NCBI GenBank assembly: GCA_017428785.1
Contig: JAFRQD010000021.1
Coordinates: 1-37,203, forward strand
Reading direction: 5' to 3'
DNA from: Bacteroidaceae bacterium
Lineage (GTDB): Bacteria > Bacteroidota > Bacteroidia > Bacteroidales > Bacteroidaceae
Length of the DNA: 37,203 nucleotides
Each line of letters begins with the position of its first letter. The first letter of the stretch is position 1. This document shows positions 2,903 to 28,472 of this stretch, piece by piece. The notes beneath the pieces were generated by a model. The model ran no database searches and had not been told where the DNA came from. It was given only the letters and a program-made list of their open reading frames with translations. The translations under genes were made by a program, and so were the position numbers.

Positions 2903-3764
2903 GATTAAATTCGGCATCATAGGCTACCCTTTGGGGCACAGTTTCAGCAGAGGTTTCTTTACCGAGAAGTTCGCTCGCGAAGGCATCGACGCACAATACC
3001 TCAACTTCGAGATTCCCGACGTGACGATGCTCCTCGACGTGCTTCGCGAGAACCCCGAACTAAGAGGACTCAATGTGACGCTGCCCCACAAACAGGCCGT
3101 CATCCCGCTTCTCGACGAGCTCAGCGACGAAGCACGCGAGATAGGCGCTGTCAATGTGATTAGGATTGAAAGATTTGATGATTTACGATTTAAAGAATGC
3201 TCTGCTCAATCCTTAAATCCTCAAATCCTTAAATCCTCCATTCACCTGAAGGGTTTCAACAGCGACATCATCGGGTTTACCGACAGCATACGCCCTTTGC
3301 TGCAGCCGCACCATAAGAAAGCGCTCGTCCTGGGTACTGGCGGAGCAAGCAAAGCCATTTGCGTCGGCCTTCGCCGCATGGGTTTGGAGTGGAAATATGT
3401 GAGCCGCAATGGGGGACAAGGAGCAAGGGGCAAGGAGCAAACTTCCTGCCCCAACAATCCTCTTGCCCCTTGCCCCCTGCCCCTTGCCCCTTTGAATTAC
3501 TCCGACCTCACACCGGAAGTGATGGCGGAATACACCGTCATTGTCAATTGCAGCCCCGTCGGGATGTTCCCCAAAGTGGATGAAGCCCCGGCCATCCCTT
3601 ATGAACTCCTCACTCCCGAGCACCTTCTCTTCGACTGCGTCTATAACCCCGAGGACACCCTCTTCCTCAAAAAGGGCAGGGAGCAGGGAGCAAGGGGCAA
3701 GAACGGCTTGGAGATGCTCCACCTCCAAGCCATTGCAAGTTGGCGCTTTTGGAACGAAGAGTAA
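2901..3764 (+). CDS. aroE: Shikimate dehydrogenase with repeat-encoded insertions
   Basis: NADPH-dependent shikimate dehydrogenase (3-dehydroshikimate to shikimate), cytoplasmic, 287 residues. Substrate side: SFSRGFF (14-20), NVTLPHK with catalytic Lys64, and NSD with Asp122. Cofactor side: GTGGAS (145-150). The C-terminal NGLEMLHLQAIASW is typical. The ATG at 2901 gives the canonical MIKFGIIGYPLGHS start; an earlier ATG at 2850 would only add repeat-derived sequence. From memory, relatives are close to 250 residues. The excess sits in two loops made of repeats: about residues 90-115 (8-base units) and 171-198 (inverted GGGCAAG-type heptads). A third heptad array (residues 259-267) occupies a position where relatives have a similar motif of about the same length, so there it adds nothing. 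Active-site residues are intact. Confidence 0.95.
   Translation: MIKFGIIGYPLGHSFSRGFFTEKFAREGIDAQYLNFEIPDVTMLLDVLRENPELRGLNVTLPHKQAVIPLLDELSDEAREIGAVNVIRIERFDDLRFKECSAQSLNPQILKSSIHLKGFNSDIIGFTDSIRPLLQPHHKKALVLGTGGASKAICVGLRRMGLEWKYVSRNGGQGARGKEQTSCPNNPLAPCPLPLAPLNYSDLTPEVMAEYTVIVNCSPVGMFPKVDEAPAIPYELLTPEHLLFDCVYNPEDTLFLKKGREQGARGKNGLEMLHLQAIASWRFWNEE
3161..3239. repeat. Inverted octad arrays inside aroE
   Basis: Left arm 3161-3192 has four 8-base units (TAGGATTG, AAAGATTT, GATGATTT, ACGATTTA). Right arm 3208-3239 has four units (AATCCTTA, AATCCTCA, AATCCTTA, AATCCTCC). The arms are inverted relative to each other with a 15-base loop. They are translated in frame as a loop before the NSD motif. 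Confidence 0.8.
3414..3489. repeat. Inverted heptad arrays inside aroE
   Basis: Left arm 3414-3441: GGACAAG, GAGCAAG, GGGCAAG, GAGCAAA. Right arm 3462-3489: CTTGCCC, CTTGCCC, CCTGCCC, CTTGCCC. Four units per arm, complementary, 20-base loop. Translated in frame as a Pro-rich loop after the GTGGAS domain. It should form a strong hairpin in the mRNA. Confidence 0.88.
3674..3701 (+). repeat. Third heptad array in aroE
   Basis: GGGCAGG, GAGCAGG, GAGCAAG, GGGCAAG: four units, no inverted partner. It encodes GREQGARGK, at a place where I recall a naturally similar motif of equal length in relatives (G-x-E-Q-G-A). Confidence 0.7.
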
Positions 3765-3767
3765 CCG

Positions 3768-3921
3768 TCTGATACTCAGGAACAATCAACACCCTATAGG
3801 ATGTCTCCAAACGCCGCCTGCGGAAATTGCAATCGCCGCACGCGGGGATGGGCAACGCCGCACGCGGAAATTGCAATCGCCGCAGGCGGCGTTTTTTACC
3901 CCTCCACAAGGGGGTTGTCAG
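3768..3921 (+). repeat. 22-base-period palindrome array between aroE and tamL
   Basis: The core at 3812-3889 has four 12-base units spaced exactly 22 bases apart: CGCCGCCTGCGG, CGCCGCACGCGG twice, CGCCGCAGGCGG. The linkers are AAATTGCAAT, GGATGGGCAA, AAATTGCAAT. The first and last units are exact reverse complements over CCGCCTGCGG/CCGCAGGCGG. Flanking units keep the register with other stems: TCTGATACTCAG (3768), CACCCTATAGGA (3790) and CCCTCCACAAGG (3900). It fills the gap between convergent aroE and tamL and touches the tamL stop. Confidence 0.85.
3878..3897 (+). terminator. Intrinsic-terminator-like hairpin after aroE
   Basis: The last core unit, CGCCGCAGGCGGCG, folds as CGCCG/CGGCG and is followed by six T. 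On sequence it would end the phoH-purC-menG-aroE transcript. Confidence 0.6.
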
Positions 3922-6572
3922 AAGGGGTAGCCGATGGCGAAATGATAGCCGAGGGACTTGCCGAAGCTGGGCATGTTGTAGTAGCCTCGCTTGCCGGTGT
4001 TGTAGGGTGCGTGGATGCCGATGCCGAGATCGAAGCGAATGACGAGGAAATCGAGGTCGTAGCGGATGCCGACACCTGTGCCGAGGGCAATCTGCTTGCC
4101 GAAGTCCTTGAAGCGGAACTTGCCGCCGGGCTGGTTCTCGCTACCACGCAGAAGCCAGACATTGCCTGCGTCGAGGAATGTCGCGCCCTGCAGCTTGCCA
4201 ACAATCGGGAAGCGGTACTCCACATTGGCCTCCAGCTTGAAATCGCCCATCTGGTCGACATAAGAATACTGCGACTTCTCGGGATGATAACTGCCCGGGC
4301 CTATCGTTCGCATACCGAAGGCACGGATGCTGTTGGCGCCGCCTACGGAGAAGAGTTCGCTGTACGGCGCAGTCTTCGCATTGCCGTAGCTATAGATGAT
4401 GCCGCCGAAGGTTCGCATGGCAATCAGGCTGCGCTTCGTCAGGAGGAACTGGCGGGTGTATTGCAAAGTCAGCTTGAGGAACTGAGCGTAAGGCACTCCC
4501 AGGAGCCGCTTGCCCTCCTTGCTGTAGGAGTCGCCGGCAATGGCATAGAAGCTCGAAAGCAGCGCCGATGCCTCCTTCGCCGTCAGGGTCAGGGCAGAGG
4601 GATGCTTGGGGCTTCCTGCCCAAGAGAACGTGTACCACATGCTCGGCACGAACTGGTCGCGCATGGAGACGTAGAGAGCGGGATTGGCATTCATGATGGA
4701 ATCGAAGCGCTCCGTGCTGTGCAGCAACTGGTCGTAGGTGATGGTCAGAGGCGAGAACTCGTGCTTGATGCGCTGCTGGCGTTGCAAAGTGTAGTTGACG
4801 CCGCCGCTCCATGAGACTCTGCCGAAGTATCTTGCCCGATTCTGCCAGCGGGCCTGCAGGTCGAGGGCTGTGGTGGCCACAAACTTGCGACCTATCTTCT
4901 TGCCCAGCCCGAAGAAGCGGAAGCGAGGATAGGACAGCGAACCGCTCAACCCATACTCATAGGAGTTGAACAGCGAGCGCTTGCCCTCGAGGTTGGCGCC
5001 TGTCTGCCATTCATACGAGCCCCAGAGCTTGAGCGTCAGCGTCTCGGCAGCCCGGAAGGCGTTGCGCTTGGAGAACGAGAAGCTGGCACCCGGACCTATC
5101 TGTCCCCCCGTCTTGCCCGTGAGGTTTCCCTGGAACTCGGCATCGTAGGGCTTGTCGAGCGTTGCATTGATGACGATGTCGAGCGTATCGGTCCCTGCCT
5201 TCACAACAGATTCCAGGCTATCGACGGCAGAGGCTTGTCCGCCGTCTGTTGCCTGTTGCCTGGGAACATAGTTGATGCGCAGGGACGAGAAGACATTCGT
5301 CGCCGCCAGCCTTTCCTGCATCAGCTCGCCGAGGGACTGCTTGTAGAGGTCGCCCTTGCGGAAGAGCAGCGAGCGCCACACGGCACGCGGCCGCAGCAAG
5401 AAGCCCTTAACGCCTTTCCAGGGAGAAGTCACGCCCTCCTTTCGCGTAAGGGGCTGACTATAGCCGAAGGAGTAACCTCCGCGCATGGCCATGCTATCCA
5501 CTATCTGCCGGTCGCCATATTTATAAATGTTCACGCGCGTGTTACCTATATTATATGGCCTCATGGCCTCTCTTGGGGCGGTTGGCGAAGGCTGCACCTG
5601 CAGTTTGACGAGCATAGGCGTCTGCAGTGTGTCGGCTCGGAAGTTGATATGTTCGTTGCGCTGATAATAGTAGCCCTGCTCTCGCAAAGCATTGACGATG
5701 CGGGTTCGCTCAGCCTCGAGGGTCACCACACTGAATGGGTCGCCGCGGTGCAAGGCCGAAGGCTCGGGGCTGTTCCTGATAATGCTGTCAGCCTCGGGAG
5801 GGAAGTTCATGTAGCTGATGCTGTCCAGATGATAGACGGGACCCGGATGGATATTGTAGCGAACACGCTCCTTCAATGAGTCGCGCGGGTCGGGAATGGT
5901 CTCGAAACCTGTCTGCGCACGGAAAAAGCCTCGACTGCGCAGGGTGTTCTTCGCAACGGTGGACCTCAGGCGAGGATTGACGTTGCTCATGAGCACAGGC
6001 GAAGCGGCAAAGTGGTTGAACATCCACTTGCCGAAACGATGCTTGCTGCCTGCATAGCGGTTGTAGATGAGCAGCTTGATGGGGAAGGGATGCGTCACGA
6101 AGCTGCTGCCCATGAAGGCTCCGTTGGGCGTATAGGAGAGCACGGCCTCCACCTCTGTCTTCGCTTCATCGAAAGCCGCCTTGTCCTTCTCCGAAGCATG
6201 ACGGAGGCTATCGCGAATGGCCTTGCTGTCCATGTCCTCCGACTTCAGGACAGAAGCATCGCCGCTCAACAAACCCTCCACCGTTGTGTAAGCGTCGGCC
6301 AAGGCAGTTATGACGCCCGTCTCCTGTCCGTTGTCGGCGGTCTGCTGTCTTTTGTCATAGTCGATGCTCTTGATGCCACGGTAAAGCGTCTCGCCCTCGG
6401 GCAGGTTCTTTGTGAGGGTACAAGCCGAGGCAAAAAAACACAGCAGGAGGGCCTTCAAAACGCCGCACGCGGAAATGCCCAACGCCGCACGCGGGGATTG
6501 CCATCGCCGCACGCGGGGATTGCCATCGCCGCAGCCGGCGTTTTTGTCCTTCCACTCTATATTGATTTTCAT
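3918..6572 (-). CDS. tamL: TamL-type lipoprotein of the BamA/Omp85 family
   Basis: Outer-membrane Omp85-family protein, 884 residues from the ATG at 6572, which lies 4 bases after the tamB stop. It has POTRA-like N-terminal parts and a C-terminal barrel (surface antigen D15 type) with the late SIRAFGMRTIGPGSY and LEANVEYRFPIVGKLQGATFLDAGNVW patterns. A lipobox (FFASAC, Cys51) follows a hydrophobic stretch and precedes TLTKNLPEGE, as in the lipid-modified TamL of Bacteroidetes, partner of TamB. Odd: residues 11-38 are translated from a 22-base-period array, putting the signal peptide far from the ATG. Without it the start would read MKINIEWKDK directly followed by LKALLLCFFASAC, a normal lipoprotein signal. 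A TTG at 6458 is an alternative start with a very short signal. Two further heptad arrays are translated within the gene. Confidence 0.9.
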   Translation of the reverse strand: MKINIEWKDKNAGCGDGNPRVRRWQSPRAALGISACGVLKALLLCFFASACTLTKNLPEGETLYRGIKSIDYDKRQQTADNGQETGVITALADAYTTVEGLLSGDASVLKSEDMDSKAIRDSLRHASEKDKAAFDEAKTEVEAVLSYTPNGAFMGSSFVTHPFPIKLLIYNRYAGSKHRFGKWMFNHFAASPVLMSNVNPRLRSTVAKNTLRSRGFFRAQTGFETIPDPRDSLKERVRYNIHPGPVYHLDSISYMNFPPEADSIIRNSPEPSALHRGDPFSVVTLEAERTRIVNALREQGYYYQRNEHINFRADTLQTPMLVKLQVQPSPTAPREAMRPYNIGNTRVNIYKYGDRQIVDSMAMRGGYSFGYSQPLTRKEGVTSPWKGVKGFLLRPRAVWRSLLFRKGDLYKQSLGELMQERLAATNVFSSLRINYVPRQQATDGGQASAVDSLESVVKAGTDTLDIVINATLDKPYDAEFQGNLTGKTGGQIGPGASFSFSKRNAFRAAETLTLKLWGSYEWQTGANLEGKRSLFNSYEYGLSGSLSYPRFRFFGLGKKIGRKFVATTALDLQARWQNRARYFGRVSWSGGVNYTLQRQQRIKHEFSPLTITYDQLLHSTERFDSIMNANPALYVSMRDQFVPSMWYTFSWAGSPKHPSALTLTAKEASALLSSFYAIAGDSYSKEGKRLLGVPYAQFLKLTLQYTRQFLLTKRSLIAMRTFGGIIYSYGNAKTAPYSELFSVGGANSIRAFGMRTIGPGSYHPEKSQYSYVDQMGDFKLEANVEYRFPIVGKLQGATFLDAGNVWLLRGSENQPGGKFRFKDFGKQIALGTGVGIRYDLDFLVIRFDLGIGIHAPYNTGKRGYYNMPSFGKSLGYHFAIGYPF
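5234..5261. repeat. Four-unit heptad array in tamL
   Basis: On the + strand: CTTGTCC, GCCGTCT, GTTGCCT, GTTGCCT. Translated in tamL as RQQATDGGQA, a low-complexity loop. Confidence 0.7.
6317..6358. repeat. Six-unit heptad array in tamL
   Basis: On the + strand: CCGTCTC, CTGTCCG, TTGTCGG, CGGTCTG, CTGTCTT, TTGTCAT. Translated in tamL as KRQQTADNGQETG near the mature N-terminus. Related to the array at 5234, as both encode RQQ(A)T(A)D-like peptides. Confidence 0.7.
6461..6548 (+). repeat. 22-base-period array inside the tamL signal region
   Basis: Four 12-base units at 6461, 6483, 6505 and 6527 (CGCCGCACGCGG three times, then CGCCGCAGCCGG). The linkers are AAATGCCCAA, GGATTGCCAT, GGATTGCCAT; then CGTTTTTGTC. 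The same 78-base core occurs at 3812, 14022, 28373 and (inverted) 19370. It is open in the tamL reading frame without stops. In the tamL mRNA it reads as a string of GC hairpins ending in a GCGGCGTTTT-like sequence. Confidence 0.9.
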
Positions 6573-13999: not shown

Positions 14000-14275
14000 G
14001 GCCTCACGAGGGGGTTCAAAACGCCGCACGCGGAAATGGGCAACGCCGCAGCCGGGGATTGCCATCGCCGCACGCGGAATTTGCCATCGCCGCACGCGGC
14101 GTTTGGAAGGCCTGCACAGGGGGGCTGGAAAGCCCTGCTGCCAAGTCACCAAACAACACACGTAATCTTTTCAAACTAAACCTGTTAAATCCGCAAACAA
14201 AGCGTGCTTAGTTTGAAAACAAAGCGTGCTTAGTTTGAAAACCAAGCACGCCATAATATCAATCGAAACACGCTC
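14000..14275 (+). repeat. Thirteen-unit 22-base-period palindrome array
   Basis: Units of a 12-base imperfect palindrome plus a 10-base linker stay in register from 14000 to the bglX stop. Starts and 12-mers: 14000 GGCCTCACGAGG; 14022, 14066 and 14088 CGCCGCACGCGG; 14044 CGCCGCAGCCGG; 14110 GCCTGCACAGGG; 14132 GCCCTGCTGCCA; 14154 CAACACACGTAA; 14176 CTAAACCTGTTA; 14198 and 14220 CAAAGCGTGCTT; 14242 CCAAGCACGCCA; 14264 CGAAACACGCTC. Linkers often end in CAAA, GAAAA or CCAT. Stems differ but many centres are CACG or CGTG. No coding signal is seen here. Confidence 0.8.
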
Positions 14276-21637: not shown

Positions 21638-21742
21638 CATTGAAGATTGAAGATTGAAAAATGAAAAATGAGATAGGTTATTGAATATCATGGATTGAAC
21701 TTAAATGATTTACCTTTCCATATTCAATCTCCAATCTTCAAT
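21638..21742. repeat. Inverted heptad arrays between manA and rplU
   Basis: Left arm 21638-21672: CATTGAA, GATTGAA twice, AAATGAA, AAATGAG. Right arm 21722-21742: ATTCAAT, CTCCAAT, CTTCAAT. The arms can pair across a loop of about 50 bases that holds no gene. Same unit type as the arms around the four-helix-bundle ORF. Confidence 0.75.
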
Positions 21743-24235: not shown

Positions 24236-25564
24236 ATGCTTACACTTAAACTCATCACAGAACAAACCGAACGCGTCATCGCGGGATTGGAAAAGAAGCA
24301 CTTCACAGGTGCTCGTCAGGCAATAGAAGAAGTGATTGCCGTCGATAAGAGCCGTCGTCAGGCACAAACTGAGCTTGACCAGAACCTCTCAGCCGCCAAG
24401 AAGTTGGCTGCAGAGATCGGCATGCTCATGAAGCAGGGAAAGCGAGAAGAGGCAGAAGAAGTCAAGGCCAAAGTGGCTGCTCTCAAGGAAACAAGCAAGG
24501 AACTCGAGGACAAGAAGGAGACTGCTGAGCAGGAACTCACTCGTCTTCTCTGCCAAATTCCCAACATTCCCTACGACGAGGTGCCCGAAGGAACATGTGC
24601 TGAAGACAACTGGGTCGTGAAGTCCAACCTCAAGGAATGCGTTCTTGGCAAAGACACCGTTGGCAACTGGGACGCGAATCCTGTTGTGGAGACAGCCAAG
24701 CTCCCGCATTGGGAACTCGCCAAGAAGTACAATCTCATCGACTTCGACCTTGGTGTGAAGATAACGGGCGCAGGTTTCCCTGTCTACAGAGGCAAGGGCG
24801 CAAGGCTGCAGCGTGCTTTGATTGACTTCTTTCTCGACGAGGCACAGAAGTCTGGCTACGAGGAAATCATGCCTCCCACCGTGGTGAATGCCGCATCGGG
24901 CTATGGCACAGGACAGCTGCCCGACAAGGAGGGCCAGATGTATCATTGCGAAGTCGATGACCTCTACCTCATCCCGACAGCCGAGGTGCCTGTGACAAAC
25001 ATCTATCGCGATGTGATTATCGACGAGAAGGACCTGCCCATCAAGAACTGCGCCTACACGCAATGTTTCCGTCGCGAAGCAGGAAGTTATGGCAAGGACG
25101 TACGCGGACTGAACCGTCTGCATGAGTTCAGCAAGATAGAAATTGTGCGCATCGACACGCCGGAACATAGTGCAGAGAGCCACAAGGAGATGCTTGCCCA
25201 CGTGGAAGGCCTGTTGCAGAAGCTTGAGCTTCCCTATCGCATCCTTCGCCTTTGCGGCGGCGACCAGAGCTTCACCAGCGCCATTTGCTACGACTTCGAG
25301 GTCTATAGCGAGGCTCAGAAGCGTTGGCTCGAGGTCAGCTCCGTCTCGAACTTCGACACCTATCAGGCCAACCGCTTGAAGTGCCGCGTTCGTCGCACCG
25401 CAACAGGCAAGACGGAACTCTGCCACACCCTCAACGGCTCAGCCCTCGCCCTGCCCCGCATCGTGGCATCCATCTTGGAGAACAACCAAACGGAACAGGG
25501 CATCCGCGTTCCTAAGGTGCTCGTCCCCTATATGGGTTGCGAGATTATTAATATTGAAAATTGA
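24236..25564 (+). CDS. serS: Seryl-tRNA synthetase
   Basis: Class II aminoacyl-tRNA synthetase of 442 residues that charges tRNA-Ser. The N-terminal coiled-coil arm spans about residues 25-110 (Lys/Glu-rich AEEVKAKVAALKETSKELEDKKE). The catalytic core has FPVYRGKGARLQRALIDFFLDEA, the TAEVPVTNIY loop, FRREAGSYGKDVRGLNRLHEF (motif 2) and LNGSALALPRIVASILENNQ (motif 3). The last residues (IINIEN) and the stop codon are read from an ATTGAAA heptad array, so the C-terminus is repeat-derived. It starts at the standard MLTLKLI. Confidence 0.98.
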   Translation: MLTLKLITEQTERVIAGLEKKHFTGARQAIEEVIAVDKSRRQAQTELDQNLSAAKKLAAEIGMLMKQGKREEAEEVKAKVAALKETSKELEDKKETAEQELTRLLCQIPNIPYDEVPEGTCAEDNWVVKSNLKECVLGKDTVGNWDANPVVETAKLPHWELAKKYNLIDFDLGVKITGAGFPVYRGKGARLQRALIDFFLDEAQKSGYEEIMPPTVVNAASGYGTGQLPDKEGQMYHCEVDDLYLIPTAEVPVTNIYRDVIIDEKDLPIKNCAYTQCFRREAGSYGKDVRGLNRLHEFSKIEIVRIDTPEHSAESHKEMLAHVEGLLQKLELPYRILRLCGGDQSFTSAICYDFEVYSEAQKRWLEVSSVSNFDTYQANRLKCRVRRTATGKTELCHTLNGSALALPRIVASILENNQTEQGIRVPKVLVPYMGCEIINIEN

Positions 25565-25580
25565 TAATTGAAAATTGAAA
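25553..25580 (+). repeat. Left heptad arm of the four-helix-bundle cassette
   Basis: ATTGAAA, ATTGATA, ATTGAAA, ATTGAAA: four units. They contain the serS stop codon and end 2 bases before the GTG start of the next ORF. Complementary to the arm at 25943-25970. Confidence 0.85.
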
Positions 25581-25582
25581 AG

Positions 25583-25942
25583 GTGAGGGAAGATAACACT
25601 ATACAAATTATATCTAAGGCTTTCGCCTTGCGAATAATTAAGTTATATCAATATCTACAAGACGAGAAACATGAATTTGTCATATCTAAACAGATACTGA
25701 AAAGTGGTACCAGTATTGGAGCAAACACACGCGAAAGCATCAATGCAGAAAGCTCCCAGGATTTCATCCATAAACTAGGAATTGCATTAAAAGAAGCAAA
25801 CGAAACACAATATTGGCTTGAATTGCTATTTGAGTCTAACTATATAAGCGAAGCTCAGTTTAATTCAATCTACCCAGAATGTGGAAGAATAGTAGCGACA
25901 CTCATCAGGATAATAAAAACAAAGAAAGATAATATAGAGTAA
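25583..25942 (+). CDS. Four-helix-bundle protein (23S rRNA IVS-type)
   Basis: A 119-residue protein of the four-helix-bundle family first seen in intervening sequences of 23S rRNA genes. The GTG at 25583 gives a start of the family's usual form (M-R-E-D-N then SKAFALRIIKLYQYL); an in-frame TTG at 25568 lies in the repeat. Other family marks are ILKSGTSIGANTRES, FIHKLGIALKEANETQYWLELL and ECGRIVATLIRIIKT. It is visibly AT-richer than serS and gltA. It sits exactly between two inverted four-heptad arms, with its stop codon directly before the right arm, so gene plus arms look like one inserted unit. Molecular function is unknown; in 23S rRNA such ORFs lie in spacers that fold on flanking inverted repeats. 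Confidence 0.9.
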   Translation: MREDNTIQIISKAFALRIIKLYQYLQDEKHEFVISKQILKSGTSIGANTRESINAESSQDFIHKLGIALKEANETQYWLELLFESNYISEAQFNSIYPECGRIVATLIRIIKTKKDNIE

Positions 25943-25970
25943 TTTCAATATTCAATCTTCAATTTTCAAT
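25943..25970 (-). repeat. Right heptad arm of the four-helix-bundle cassette
   Basis: TTTCAAT, ATTCAAT, CTTCAAT, TTTCAAT: four units, the inverted complement of the arm at 25553-25580. They begin directly after the TAA of the ORF and end 9 bases before the gltA fusion gene. Confidence 0.85.
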
Positions 25971-25979
25971 AAACTAACT

Positions 25980-28358
25980 ATGTTCAAGATTGTTAAGAAA
26001 GTTCAGTTCAGCGAGAAGGTTTTCCGCCTGGACGTTGAGGCTCCGTTGATTGCAAAGGCACGCAAAGCCGGTCATTTCGTCATCGTTCGCGTTGACGAGA
26101 AGGGCGAGCGTGTGCCTCTTACTATAGCTGGCAGCGATAAAGATAAGGGAACCATCACGCTGGTTATCCAGACGGTTGGTGCCAGCACGAGTCAGCTCTG
26201 CGCCCTGAATGAAGGAGACTATATAGCAGACGTGGTCGGGCCTCTTGGTCGCGCCACGCACATCGAGAACTACGGCACCGTGCTCTGTGCAGGTGGTGGC
26301 GTGGGAACGGCTCCCATGCTGCCCATCATCCAGGCTCTCAAGGCAGCTGGAAATAAAGTAATCAGTGTGATTGCAGGTCGCAGCAAGGAGCTCATCATAT
26401 TGGAGGACGAGGTGCGTGCCGCAAGCGATGAGGTCATCATCATGACCGACGACGGCTCTTACGGCAAGCAAGGCGTGGTGACAGTCGGCATGGAAGAGGT
26501 CATCCAGCGCGAGAAGGTGGACAAGTGCTTTGCCATCGGCCCTGCCATCATGATGAAGTTCTGCTGCTTGCTGACTAAGAAATACGACATTCCGACCGAC
26601 GTAAGCCTCAACACCATCATGGTGGACGGCACAGGCATGTGCGGTGCTTGCCGCGTAAGTGTTGGCGGCAAGACGAAGTTCGTCTGCGTGGACGGCCCCG
26701 AGTTCGACGGCCATCAGGTTGACTTCAACGAGATGATGCAACGCGGCGGTGCGTTCAAGGCGGAGGAGGCAGAAGCCATGGCAGCCTATCAGGCTGCATT
26801 AGAGGGGCAAGGAGCAAGGAGCAAGGAGCAAGAGAAATGTTCCAAGACCTGTGCTCAAAACGCTCAAGTTAGTGCCAACAACATGGACACAACTACGTCT
26901 CTCTCTGAACTTACAGACAGAAGTGCGGCATGGCGCGAAGAGCTTCGCAAGTCGATGAAGGCAAAGGAACGCATGCAGATTGAGCGCTGCAAAATGCCTG
27001 AGCTCGATCCGGTCTATCGTGCTACAACCAGAACTGAGGAGGTGAACCAGGGCTTGACTGTAGAGCAGGCCATGACAGAAGCAAAGCGCTGTCTCGACTG
27101 CGCCAACCCGACCTGTATGCAAGGCTGTCCCGTCGGCATCAACATCCCGTCGTTCATCAAGAACATCGAGCGTGGCGAGTTCCTCGATGCAGCCCGAGTG
27201 CTGAAGATGACCTCTTCCCTGCCCGCCGTTTGCGGTCGTGTCTGCCCTCAGGAGAAGCAATGCGAGGCACAATGTATCCACCTGAAGATGAACGAGCCGG
27301 CCGTCGCTATCGGCAACTTGGAACGCTTCGCAGCCGACTACGAGCGCCAGTCTGGCAAGATGTCTCTGCCCGATGTGGCCGAGAAGAACGGCAAGAAGAT
27401 TGCAGTCATTGGCTCAGGTCCTTCGGGACTGAGTTTCGCAGGCGATATGGCAAAGGCCGGCTACGACGTGACTGTCTTCGAAGCCCTGCATGAGATAGGC
27501 GGTGTGTTGAAGTACGGCATTCCCGAGTTCCGTCTGCCCAACGCGATTGTCGATGTCGAGATACAGAACCTGGAGAAGATCGGCGTGAAGTTCGTGAAGG
27601 ACTGCGTCGTAGGCAAGACCATCACGATTGCCGACCTTGAGAAGGAAGACTACAAGGGCATCTTCGTAGGCTCCGGCGCAGGTCTGCCCAACTTCATGAA
27701 CATTCCTGGCGAGAACTCGAACGGCATCATGTCGAGCAACGAGTACCTGACACGCGTCAACCTCATGGATGCAAGCAATCCTGAGTACGCTACGCCCATC
27801 AAGAAGGCGAAGAATGTGATGGTAGTGGGTGGCGGCAACACCGCTATGGACAGCTGCCGCACGGCAAAGCGCCTGGGTGCCGAGCGCGTGCTCCTCGTCT
27901 ATCGCAGAAGCGAGGAAGAGATGCCGGCACGTCTCGAAGAGGTGAAGCACGCAAAAGAAGAGGGAATAGAATTCCTCACCCTGCACAATCCCCTCGAGTA
28001 TCATGCTGACGAGAAGGGAAATGTCTGCGAAGTGGTGCTCCAGAAGATGGAGCTTGGCGAGCCTGATGCCAGCGGACGCCGTTCGCCTGTGCCCATTCCG
28101 GGAGCAACCGAAACCATCGCCATCGACCAGGCCATCGTGGCTGTCGGCGTAAGTCCCAATCCTCTCGTACCCAATTCGATACAGGGCCTTGAGCTTGGCC
28201 GTAAGAATACTATTGTCGTGAACGACGGCATGCAGACCAACATCCCGACCATCTTTGCCGGTGGCGACATCGTCCGTGGTGGCGCGACCGTCATCCTGGC
28301 GATGGGCGACGGACGCCGTGCTGCAGCGGCTATGCAGGAGTATTTGACAACAGCGTAA
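25980..28358 (+). CDS. gltA: Fused PyrK-like electron-transfer subunit / NADPH-dependent glutamate synthase small subunit
   Basis: A 792-residue fusion known in Bacteroidales. Residues 1 to about 265 are a ferredoxin-NADP reductase/PyrK-like module: FAD part (RVPLTIAGSD), NAD part (GGGVGTAPMLPI), and a 2Fe-2S Cys set in GTGMCGACRVSVGGKTKFVC. Residues about 310-792 are the GltD-like module: Cys-rich CLDCANPTCMQGCPVG and CGRVCPQEKQCEAQC for 4Fe-4S clusters, FAD site VIGSGPSGLSFAGDMAKAGY, and NADPH site VVGGGNTAMDSCRTAKRLGA. A role like NfnAB (electron bifurcation with ferredoxin) or glutamate synthesis is possible; the sequence alone does not decide. The linker (276-285, [10 protein letters not shown]) is a four-heptad array. 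All visible cofactor motifs are intact. Confidence 0.93.
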   Translation: MFKIVKKVQFSEKVFRLDVEAPLIAKARKAGHFVIVRVDEKGERVPLTIAGSDKDKGTITLVIQTVGASTSQLCALNEGDYIADVVGPLGRATHIENYGTVLCAGGGVGTAPMLPIIQALKAAGNKVISVIAGRSKELIILEDEVRAASDEVIIMTDDGSYGKQGVVTVGMEEVIQREKVDKCFAIGPAIMMKFCCLLTKKYDIPTDVSLNTIMVDGTGMCGACRVSVGGKTKFVCVDGPEFDGHQVDFNEMMQRGGAFKAEEAEAMAAYQAALEGQGARSKEQEKCSKTCAQNAQVSANNMDTTTSLSELTDRSAAWREELRKSMKAKERMQIERCKMPELDPVYRATTRTEEVNQGLTVEQAMTEAKRCLDCANPTCMQGCPVGINIPSFIKNIERGEFLDAARVLKMTSSLPAVCGRVCPQEKQCEAQCIHLKMNEPAVAIGNLERFAADYERQSGKMSLPDVAEKNGKKIAVIGSGPSGLSFAGDMAKAGYDVTVFEALHEIGGVLKYGIPEFRLPNAIVDVEIQNLEKIGVKFVKDCVVGKTITIADLEKEDYKGIFVGSGAGLPNFMNIPGENSNGIMSSNEYLTRVNLMDASNPEYATPIKKAKNVMVVGGGNTAMDSCRTAKRLGAERVLLVYRRSEEEMPARLEEVKHAKEEGIEFLTLHNPLEYHADEKGNVCEVVLQKMELGEPDASGRRSPVPIPGATETIAIDQAIVAVGVSPNPLVPNSIQGLELGRKNTIVVNDGMQTNIPTIFAGGDIVRGGATVILAMGDGRRAAAAMQEYLTTA
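26805..26832 (+). repeat. Four-unit heptad array in the gltA fusion linker
   Basis: GGGCAAG then GAGCAAG three times: exactly four units, 28 bases, in frame at the junction of the two enzyme modules. Nearly identical to the array in menG. Confidence 0.88.
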
Positions 28359-28472
28359 GAGGGGCTTGAAAACGCCGCACGCGGAATTGGCCATCGCCGC
28401 AGCCGGGGATTGCCATCGCCGCACGCGGAAATCACCATCGCCGCACGCGGCGTTTTCAACCCCCGCACGACA
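28351..28472 (+). repeat. 22-base-period array after gltA
   Basis: The core at 28373-28450 has four 12-base units (CGCCGCACGCGG, CGCCGCAGCCGG, CGCCGCACGCGG twice) with linkers AATTGGCCAT, GGATTGCCAT, AAATCACCAT. In-register flanks are CAGCGTAAGAGG (28351, contains the gltA stop) and CCCCGCACGACA (28461). The last core unit with CGTTTTC resembles a terminator hairpin for gltA. Confidence 0.87.

Follow-up and report, generated by a model that had tools for sequence, protein, structure and literature searches.

The segment at 25552-25971 of the window, by which we mean the whole 37,203-nucleotide stretch of Bacteroidaceae DNA analysed, is probably one copy of a transposase-less cassette resembling an intervening sequence (IVS), with an S23 gene between inverted arms of short tandem repeats. 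The same arrangement, an S23 gene between mirror-image short-repeat arrays, recurs across several bacterial phyla. These cassettes look like a little-noticed sort of mobile element, and the best reading is that of a selfish IVS-like element with foldback-type arms.

Anatomy of the window cassette

The initial annotation had described an open reading frame (ORF) precisely framed by inverted arms of four heptads, and this description was confirmed. The two arms are 29 nt each and 90% complementary. The left arm stops 2 nt upstream of the GTG start codon at 25583, and the right arm begins at the base directly after the TAA stop codon (25940-25942), with a gap of 8 nt to the ATG of the downstream gene. 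Since serS ends at 25564, its stop codon falls within the left arm, as had been proposed. The ORF encodes a protein of 119 aa and is the sole ORF of at least 60 aa read between the arms (longest open stretch 119 codons). It belongs to the S23 family by its matches to the profiles PF05635 (93.3 bits, cut-off 33.8) and TIGR02436 (104.5 bits, cut-off 24). A sequence search of the PDB with this ORF matched 2RLD only (E 1.5e-34), and a profile built from nine sequences additionally recovered entry 2GSC; both are solved structures of S23/IVP proteins.

Features of the window and of its possible ORF-less relatives.
Feature	Position	Strand	Remarks
serS, upstream host gene	24236..25564	+	3' end changed by left arm
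Left arm, four ATTGAAA-type heptads	25552..25580	+	inverted repeat; serS stop codon inside
S23 four-helix-bundle gene, PF05635 / TIGR02436	25583..25942	+	GTG start, profile matches
Right arm, four TTCAAT-type heptads	25943..25971	-	inverted repeat partner of left arm
gltA/sudA-like oxidoreductase, downstream host gene	25980..28358	+	profile identification
ORF-less inverted heptad pair, possible relative	21639-21666 / 21715-21742		loop 48 nt
ORF-less inverted heptad pair within aroE, in frame; possible relative	3413-3440 / 3463-3490		loop 22 nt

No transposase gene was present among the ORFs of at least 60 aa read between the arms. Inverted ends built of short tandem repeats, a foldback-type feature, are found in the window cassette and in other copies. 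The window cassette also has the S23 ORF between complementary borders that is a feature of the 23S rRNA IVS element. Its location is not in an rRNA helix: it is flanked by serS and an oxidoreductase gene, an Rfam scan of the window matched a tRNA only, with no rRNA around the cassette, and an Rfam scan of 14 other S23 loci gave no match. The window cassette is therefore not classed as a 23S rRNA IVS. Other repeats in the window include an AAGGAGC heptad array in frame within the downstream oxidoreductase gene (26803-26832) and recurring arrays of a 22-nt unit (CGCCGCACGCGG...) at 3808-3889, 6461-6533, 14022-14099 and 28373-28469.

Armed S23 genes in other genomes

Arms were scored as the best local alignment of the 200 nt upstream of an ORF plus its first 75 nt against the reverse complement of the 200 nt downstream; the window pair scored 21.5 (in one scoring scheme). 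Four PF05635 genes occur in the source draft genome (2.98 Mb, 71 contigs), each flanked by an inverted pair of tandem-repeat arms that match each other but differ in wording from gene to gene (scores 16 to 44). Across the genus, 104 S23 matches among those listed, strongest first, gave 101 unique ORFs, a sample skewed to strong family members. Scores of at least 14 were reached by 82 of these 101 ORFs and scores of at least 18 by 67, against 5 and 2 of 276 control genes (from 291 genes in the window and 20 further stretches, ORFs too close to contig ends being dropped) and, at the threshold of 14, 37 of 801 mismatched S23 pairings. The initial annotation had suggested a survey of S23 genes for such flanks and had taken unarmed copies as evidence against a cassette. 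The survey found arms around most genes, yet 19 of the 101 ORFs score under 14, so some copies have no clear arms.

Arms also occur well outside the genus. In Bacteroidota the family was found in 90 of 118 genomes; 14 of the best 30 loci reach 14 and 16 lie below (mismatched pairings 10/870), so that arms are weaker in this wider set than in the genus. A GTDB scan of the subfamily covered the best 80 of 532 relatives, with group names taken from record titles. Here 75 of 79 scorable loci reach 14: Bacteroidota 49/50, Bacillota 18/19, Cyanobacteria 2/3, Campylobacterota 2/2, Deferribacteres 1/1, Ignavibacteria 1/1, Verrucomicrobia 1/1, Desulfobacterales 0/1 and unassigned 1/1. Mismatched pairings in this subfamily also reach 14 in 204 of 941 cases, because the copies have AATTGAC-like units in common. 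Among the matches listed for 16 named genomes out of the subfamily set, 24 of 30 PF05635 loci reach 14 (mismatched pairings 19/870), 8 of the 30 repeating elements of the subfamily scan. The multi-phylum set (L185-L214 and L275-L384), in which the same repeated elements are counted, gave 106 of 129 S23 ORFs at 14 or above; among the remaining complete ORFs of these loci, 10 of 259 did so. The repeat units are mostly 7-8 nt, and their wording differs from copy to copy but usually agrees within one copy. A cyanobacterial S23 gene (L325:1430-1940) has long TAATTGA arms on both sides, near the published TAACTGA wording. Two S23 ORFs lie a few kilobases apart in L070, L082, L107 and L113, in opposite directions in L113.

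Where an upstream gene was found in the genus and Bacteroidota sets, it was co-directional with the S23 gene at 80 of 94 loci (96 scored), with its stop codon a median of 4 nt from the left arm and inside the arm at 29 of the 80. The multi-phylum values were 77 of 86 co-directional (91 scored) and 57 of 77 with the stop inside the arm. The cassette thus usually sits at the stop codon of a co-directional upstream gene, its left arm often supplying that stop. All three frames are closed in 60 of 96 left arms versus 38 of 96 right arms (Wilcoxon, 57 locus groups, p 1.8e-4), and in 60 versus 16 of 90 in the multi-phylum set. The mean number of closed frames, out of three, was 2.42 for left arms (shuffled 1.87) and 1.69 for right arms (shuffled 1.11) at the 96 loci, and 2.41 and 1.22 in the multi-phylum set. 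Stop codons are plentiful in every frame of the left arm, which gives the host gene a clean end. G exceeded C in 81 of 86 left arms of the genus set and 70 of 90 of the multi-phylum set. The orientation of the cassette agrees with the left arm serving to provide stop codons, a role for which it may have been selected.

Filled sites, arm evolution and alternative readings

Filled and empty sites were called by eye at three junctions, with 30 loci at each. The serS-gltA junction is filled at three loci (L035, which is the window, L041 and L049), has a short S23-free spacer at 14 and other inserts at nine, and is unreadable at four. The 14 short junctions, the cassette-free serS-gltA loci that had been sought, contain neither ORF nor ATTGAAA array and come from relatives whose SerS is 93-99% identical over the part searched. 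At rnfE-rnfA, four loci are filled (L247, the source genome, L263, L264 and L268), 24 empty and two unreadable, and the left arm provides the rnfE stop at the filled loci. The cysD-cysN junction of Bacteroides is filled at L385 (the L351 locus of B. rodentium) and L400, where the right arm is open and in frame with the N-terminus of CysN (start codon inferred). At the three junctions, the majority of readable relatives are without the ORF and its matched arms. ORF and arms are jointly present or absent, so both behave as one insertion, in agreement with the initial annotation, and the ORF is not fixed at the serS-gltA locus. No clear target duplication was seen by eye at the serS, rnf and cys sites, where the arms mask the exact ends. 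Orthologous copies at one locus are many and close pairs at different loci few, so movement is rare or old.

Several spacers hold repeats and no S23 gene. The empty serS spacers of L039 and L047 carry a lone ATTGAAAA, that of L062 is mildly repetitive, and about ten other cysD-cysN spacers, judged by eye, have one-sided heptad-like arrays. Arrays can therefore pre-exist the S23 gene or occur without it. At L405, an ORF-less inverted heptad hairpin occupies the cysD-cysN site where L385 and L400 hold S23. The other inserts in nine of the 30 serS-gltA spacers (L042-L046, L048, L053, L054, L056) suggest that this spacer may be an insertion hot spot. We also observed that the start of the window S23 ORF at 25583-25620 (GGAAGATAACACTATACA) is similar to the empty serS-gltA spacer of L036 (AAGGATAACACAATACA), by chance or as a trace of insertion.

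We compared the complementarity of each copy's own arms with that of arms paired across species, using orthologs with both flanks alike. The values were equivalent at 90-100% ORF identity (18.3 own vs 18.2 cross-species, 11 pairs) and 80-90% (19.5 vs 19.4, 19 pairs). At 70-80% they separated, to 24.4 own against 15.5 cross-species over 79 pairs, the own value being the higher in 66 and the lower in 13. Below 70% they were 23.7 and 11.9 over 15 pairs, with the own value above the other in 13 and under it in one. All these pairs, drawn from 18 ortholog groups, are non-independent. Arm sequence shifts between species, yet the complementarity of both arms persists. Mirrored unit order, which arm copying would produce, is only slightly above a unit-shuffled control (0.901 vs 0.886, 93 pairs, p 6e-4). 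Copies with unlike flanks share left arms in 56% of 161 pairs at 70% protein identity or more, 12% of 2569 at 55-70%, 5% of 2106 at 45-55%, 1% of 2939 at 35-45% and 0% below, although some of these pairs may be orthologs with diverged flanks. Arms are more alike the more similar the S23 proteins, even where the flanks differ, and the arms thus belong to the unit. The S23 protein is under strong purifying selection, with a median dN/dS of 0.06 (44 pairs); for the window gene dN/dS is 0.049 against L041 and 0.044 against L049 (dS 1.7, near saturation). That the cassette inverts by way of its arms was considered and rejected, as no pair has both flanks swapped and there is a lone one-sided match, L113/L114.

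A scan excluding N runs found no periodic inverted pairs in 214 kb from ten S23-free genomes, none in the 445 kb sampled from genomes carrying one to three S23 copies, and nine in 398 kb from genomes with at least four. These nine, located in G000 (the source genome), G064, G114 and G117, comprise two S23 cassettes, five pairs with loops of 22-48 nt and two that link neighbouring arrays. The initial annotation had suggested that empty heptad pairs could be ORF-less relatives of the cassette; such pairs do exist at 21639-21742, in aroE and at L405, and their relatedness is possible. In the AroE of relatives (L215-L222) the heptad-pair loop is optional, and other genomes have unrelated hairpins there. 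AroE of the window has two in-frame loops with hairpin-like inserts, 3208-3238 and 3413-3492.

Outside S23 loci, period-7 arrays numbered 0 per 100 kb in genomes without S23 (10 genomes), 1.3 with one copy (14), 2.3 with 2-3 (13), 4.7 with 4-6 (9) and 12.8 with at least seven (8), a correlation of array density with copy number (Spearman 0.43, p 0.0012, 54 genomes). On a serS tree of 49 of the 54 genomes, with masking limited to the S23 arms of the window, the slope had a p value of 4e-5 at lambda 0, 0.003 at lambda 0.5 and 0.08 at lambda 1. No period-7 arrays were found in 40 kb of G089 (14 S23 copies) or in 20 kb of G096 (11 copies). The rise of heptad density with S23 copy number is suggestive, not proof that S23 makes heptads, as the dose trend fades on the species tree. 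The role in spreading such insertions that the initial annotation had proposed for the four-helix-bundle protein is conjectural.

Complementarity that stays while arm sequence varies would also be expected if the arms were RNA signals, pairing in polycistronic mRNA so that an RNase III cut frees the S23 message from that of the host genes, with selection on pairing and not on sequence. The upstream gene is co-directional for most cassettes, the RNA fold of the window cassette closes on its arms (z -2.98; none of 100 shuffles equally stable), and RNase III excision has been reported for rRNA IVSs (part of PMC4990558). However, a stem in the sense RNA should accept G.U over A.C mismatches. The 86 loci of the genus set have 107 G.U and 146 A.C mismatches, the 23 loci of the Bacteroidota set 31 and 26, and the 90 arm pairs of the multi-phylum set 87 and 127 (p 0.0075), mismatches within one locus and kindred loci being non-independent. 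This comparison leaves a sense-RNA stem unsupported as the selected feature, and we consider the RNA-signal explanation unlikely.

A history in which slippage and template switching first create inverted heptad arrays in spacers, whose hairpin loops S23 genes then enter, much as rRNA helices host IVSs, would account for the ORF-less inverted pairs, such as L405 at the S23 site of L385 and L400, and for the S23-free one-sided arrays of the cysD-cysN spacers. It is nevertheless quite improbable given the short array-free junctions at serS-gltA (14/30) and rnfE-rnfA (24/30), the dependence of arm sequence on S23 protein identity across unlike flanks, and the restriction of periodic inverted pairs to genomes with at least four S23 copies. 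Heptad arrays are abundant within the window, and common arrays might flank an ORF by coincidence. We give this next to no credence, since the scores of control genes (5/276), mismatched S23 pairings (37/801) and other ORFs of the same loci (10/259) speak against it and the identical pattern recurs in several phyla.

Candidate mechanism and known systems

If the cassette is a selfish IVS-like element with foldback-type arms, the arms would be held matched mainly at the DNA level, one arm being copied from the other within the foldback. Such copying could proceed by template switching or gene conversion, together with slippage inside the arms. The S23 protein is a pentamer, and S23/IVP proteins have no known function, according to the portion of PMC4990558 used here. 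The pentamer might bind the foldback in its DNA or RNA form and so aid the persistence or movement of the element, while the left arm would insulate the upstream gene. ORF-less pairs could then be remnants or non-autonomous relatives. A wider proposal, which is possible but which we advance only tentatively, is that PF05635 outside rRNA is the core gene of bacteria-wide transposase-less foldback elements, that the S23 pentamer drives arm-to-arm copying and new copies at gene ends, and that these elements left behind many of the intergenic heptad arrays seen in Bacteroidota, Cyanobacteria and Beggiatoaceae.

Neither reverse transcriptase nor Y1 transposase consistently accompanies S23 cassettes. 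A reverse transcriptase was rejected as a required partner, as the S23-bearing drafts G000, G050, G114, G264, G265 and G267 have no match. PF00078 is present in 9 of 20 genomes searched, and gave no match in the source genome, an incomplete draft (84% complete). Matches to Y1 (HUH) transposase occur in 51 of 121 genus genomes, including one of 12 S23-free genomes (G061) and 13 of 31 with at least seven S23 copies by our count, so there is no dose effect. The S23-bearing G096, G265, G267 and G269 have no Y1 match, and Y1 was likewise rejected as the mobiliser.

S23/IVP proteins are familiar chiefly from 23S rRNA intervening sequences. An anatomical rule, inverted short-repeat arms with the upstream gene ending at or within the left arm, would unite scattered "four helix bundle protein" genes and rRNA IVSs in a single kind of element, and S23 cassettes are a possible source of intergenic heptamer arrays. 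The rule also cautions against guilt by association, as a cassette slipped between operon genes appears tied to the operon it entered. In the parts of the sources consulted, PF05635 is listed in cas loci (PMC3936711; PMC10910872) and in retroelement searches (PMC10053308), and S23 ORFs are reported at several rRNA gene sites of CPR bacteria (PMC11270868). In the open-licence full-text library searched, we recognised no description of S23 genes with tandem-repeat arms.

Eukaryotic foldback transposons have long inverted ends composed of short tandem repeats. The window cassette differs from these in being bacterial, about 420 bp long and transposase-less, with an S23 gene inside. The Avd protein of diversity-generating retroelements (4DWL) has been described, on sequence and structural grounds, as a homologue of PF05635 (part of PMC10053308), whereas the source draft genome (84% complete) has no reverse transcriptase match. 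Intergenic TAACTGA heptamer arrays are described from Cyanobacteria and Bacteroidetes (PMC4679880), with wording near the TAATTGA arms of L325; those arrays are mostly direct repeats, and the main text of that paper does not contain the words four helix, S23 or intervening. The BrickBuilt MITE of Porphyromonas gingivalis (PMC4596501) is also intergenic and has inverted repeats, with a tandem repeat inside it, but the units of that repeat are 23 nt and internal, and its abstract does not mention an S23 gene. The parallel with the 23S rRNA IVS drawn in the initial annotation holds, by anatomy and by the part of PMC4990558 that describes these elements. The two share the protein family, one small ORF, stem-capable borders and a sporadic distribution, whereas the window cassette is flanked by protein-coding genes and its arms consist of short units in tandem.
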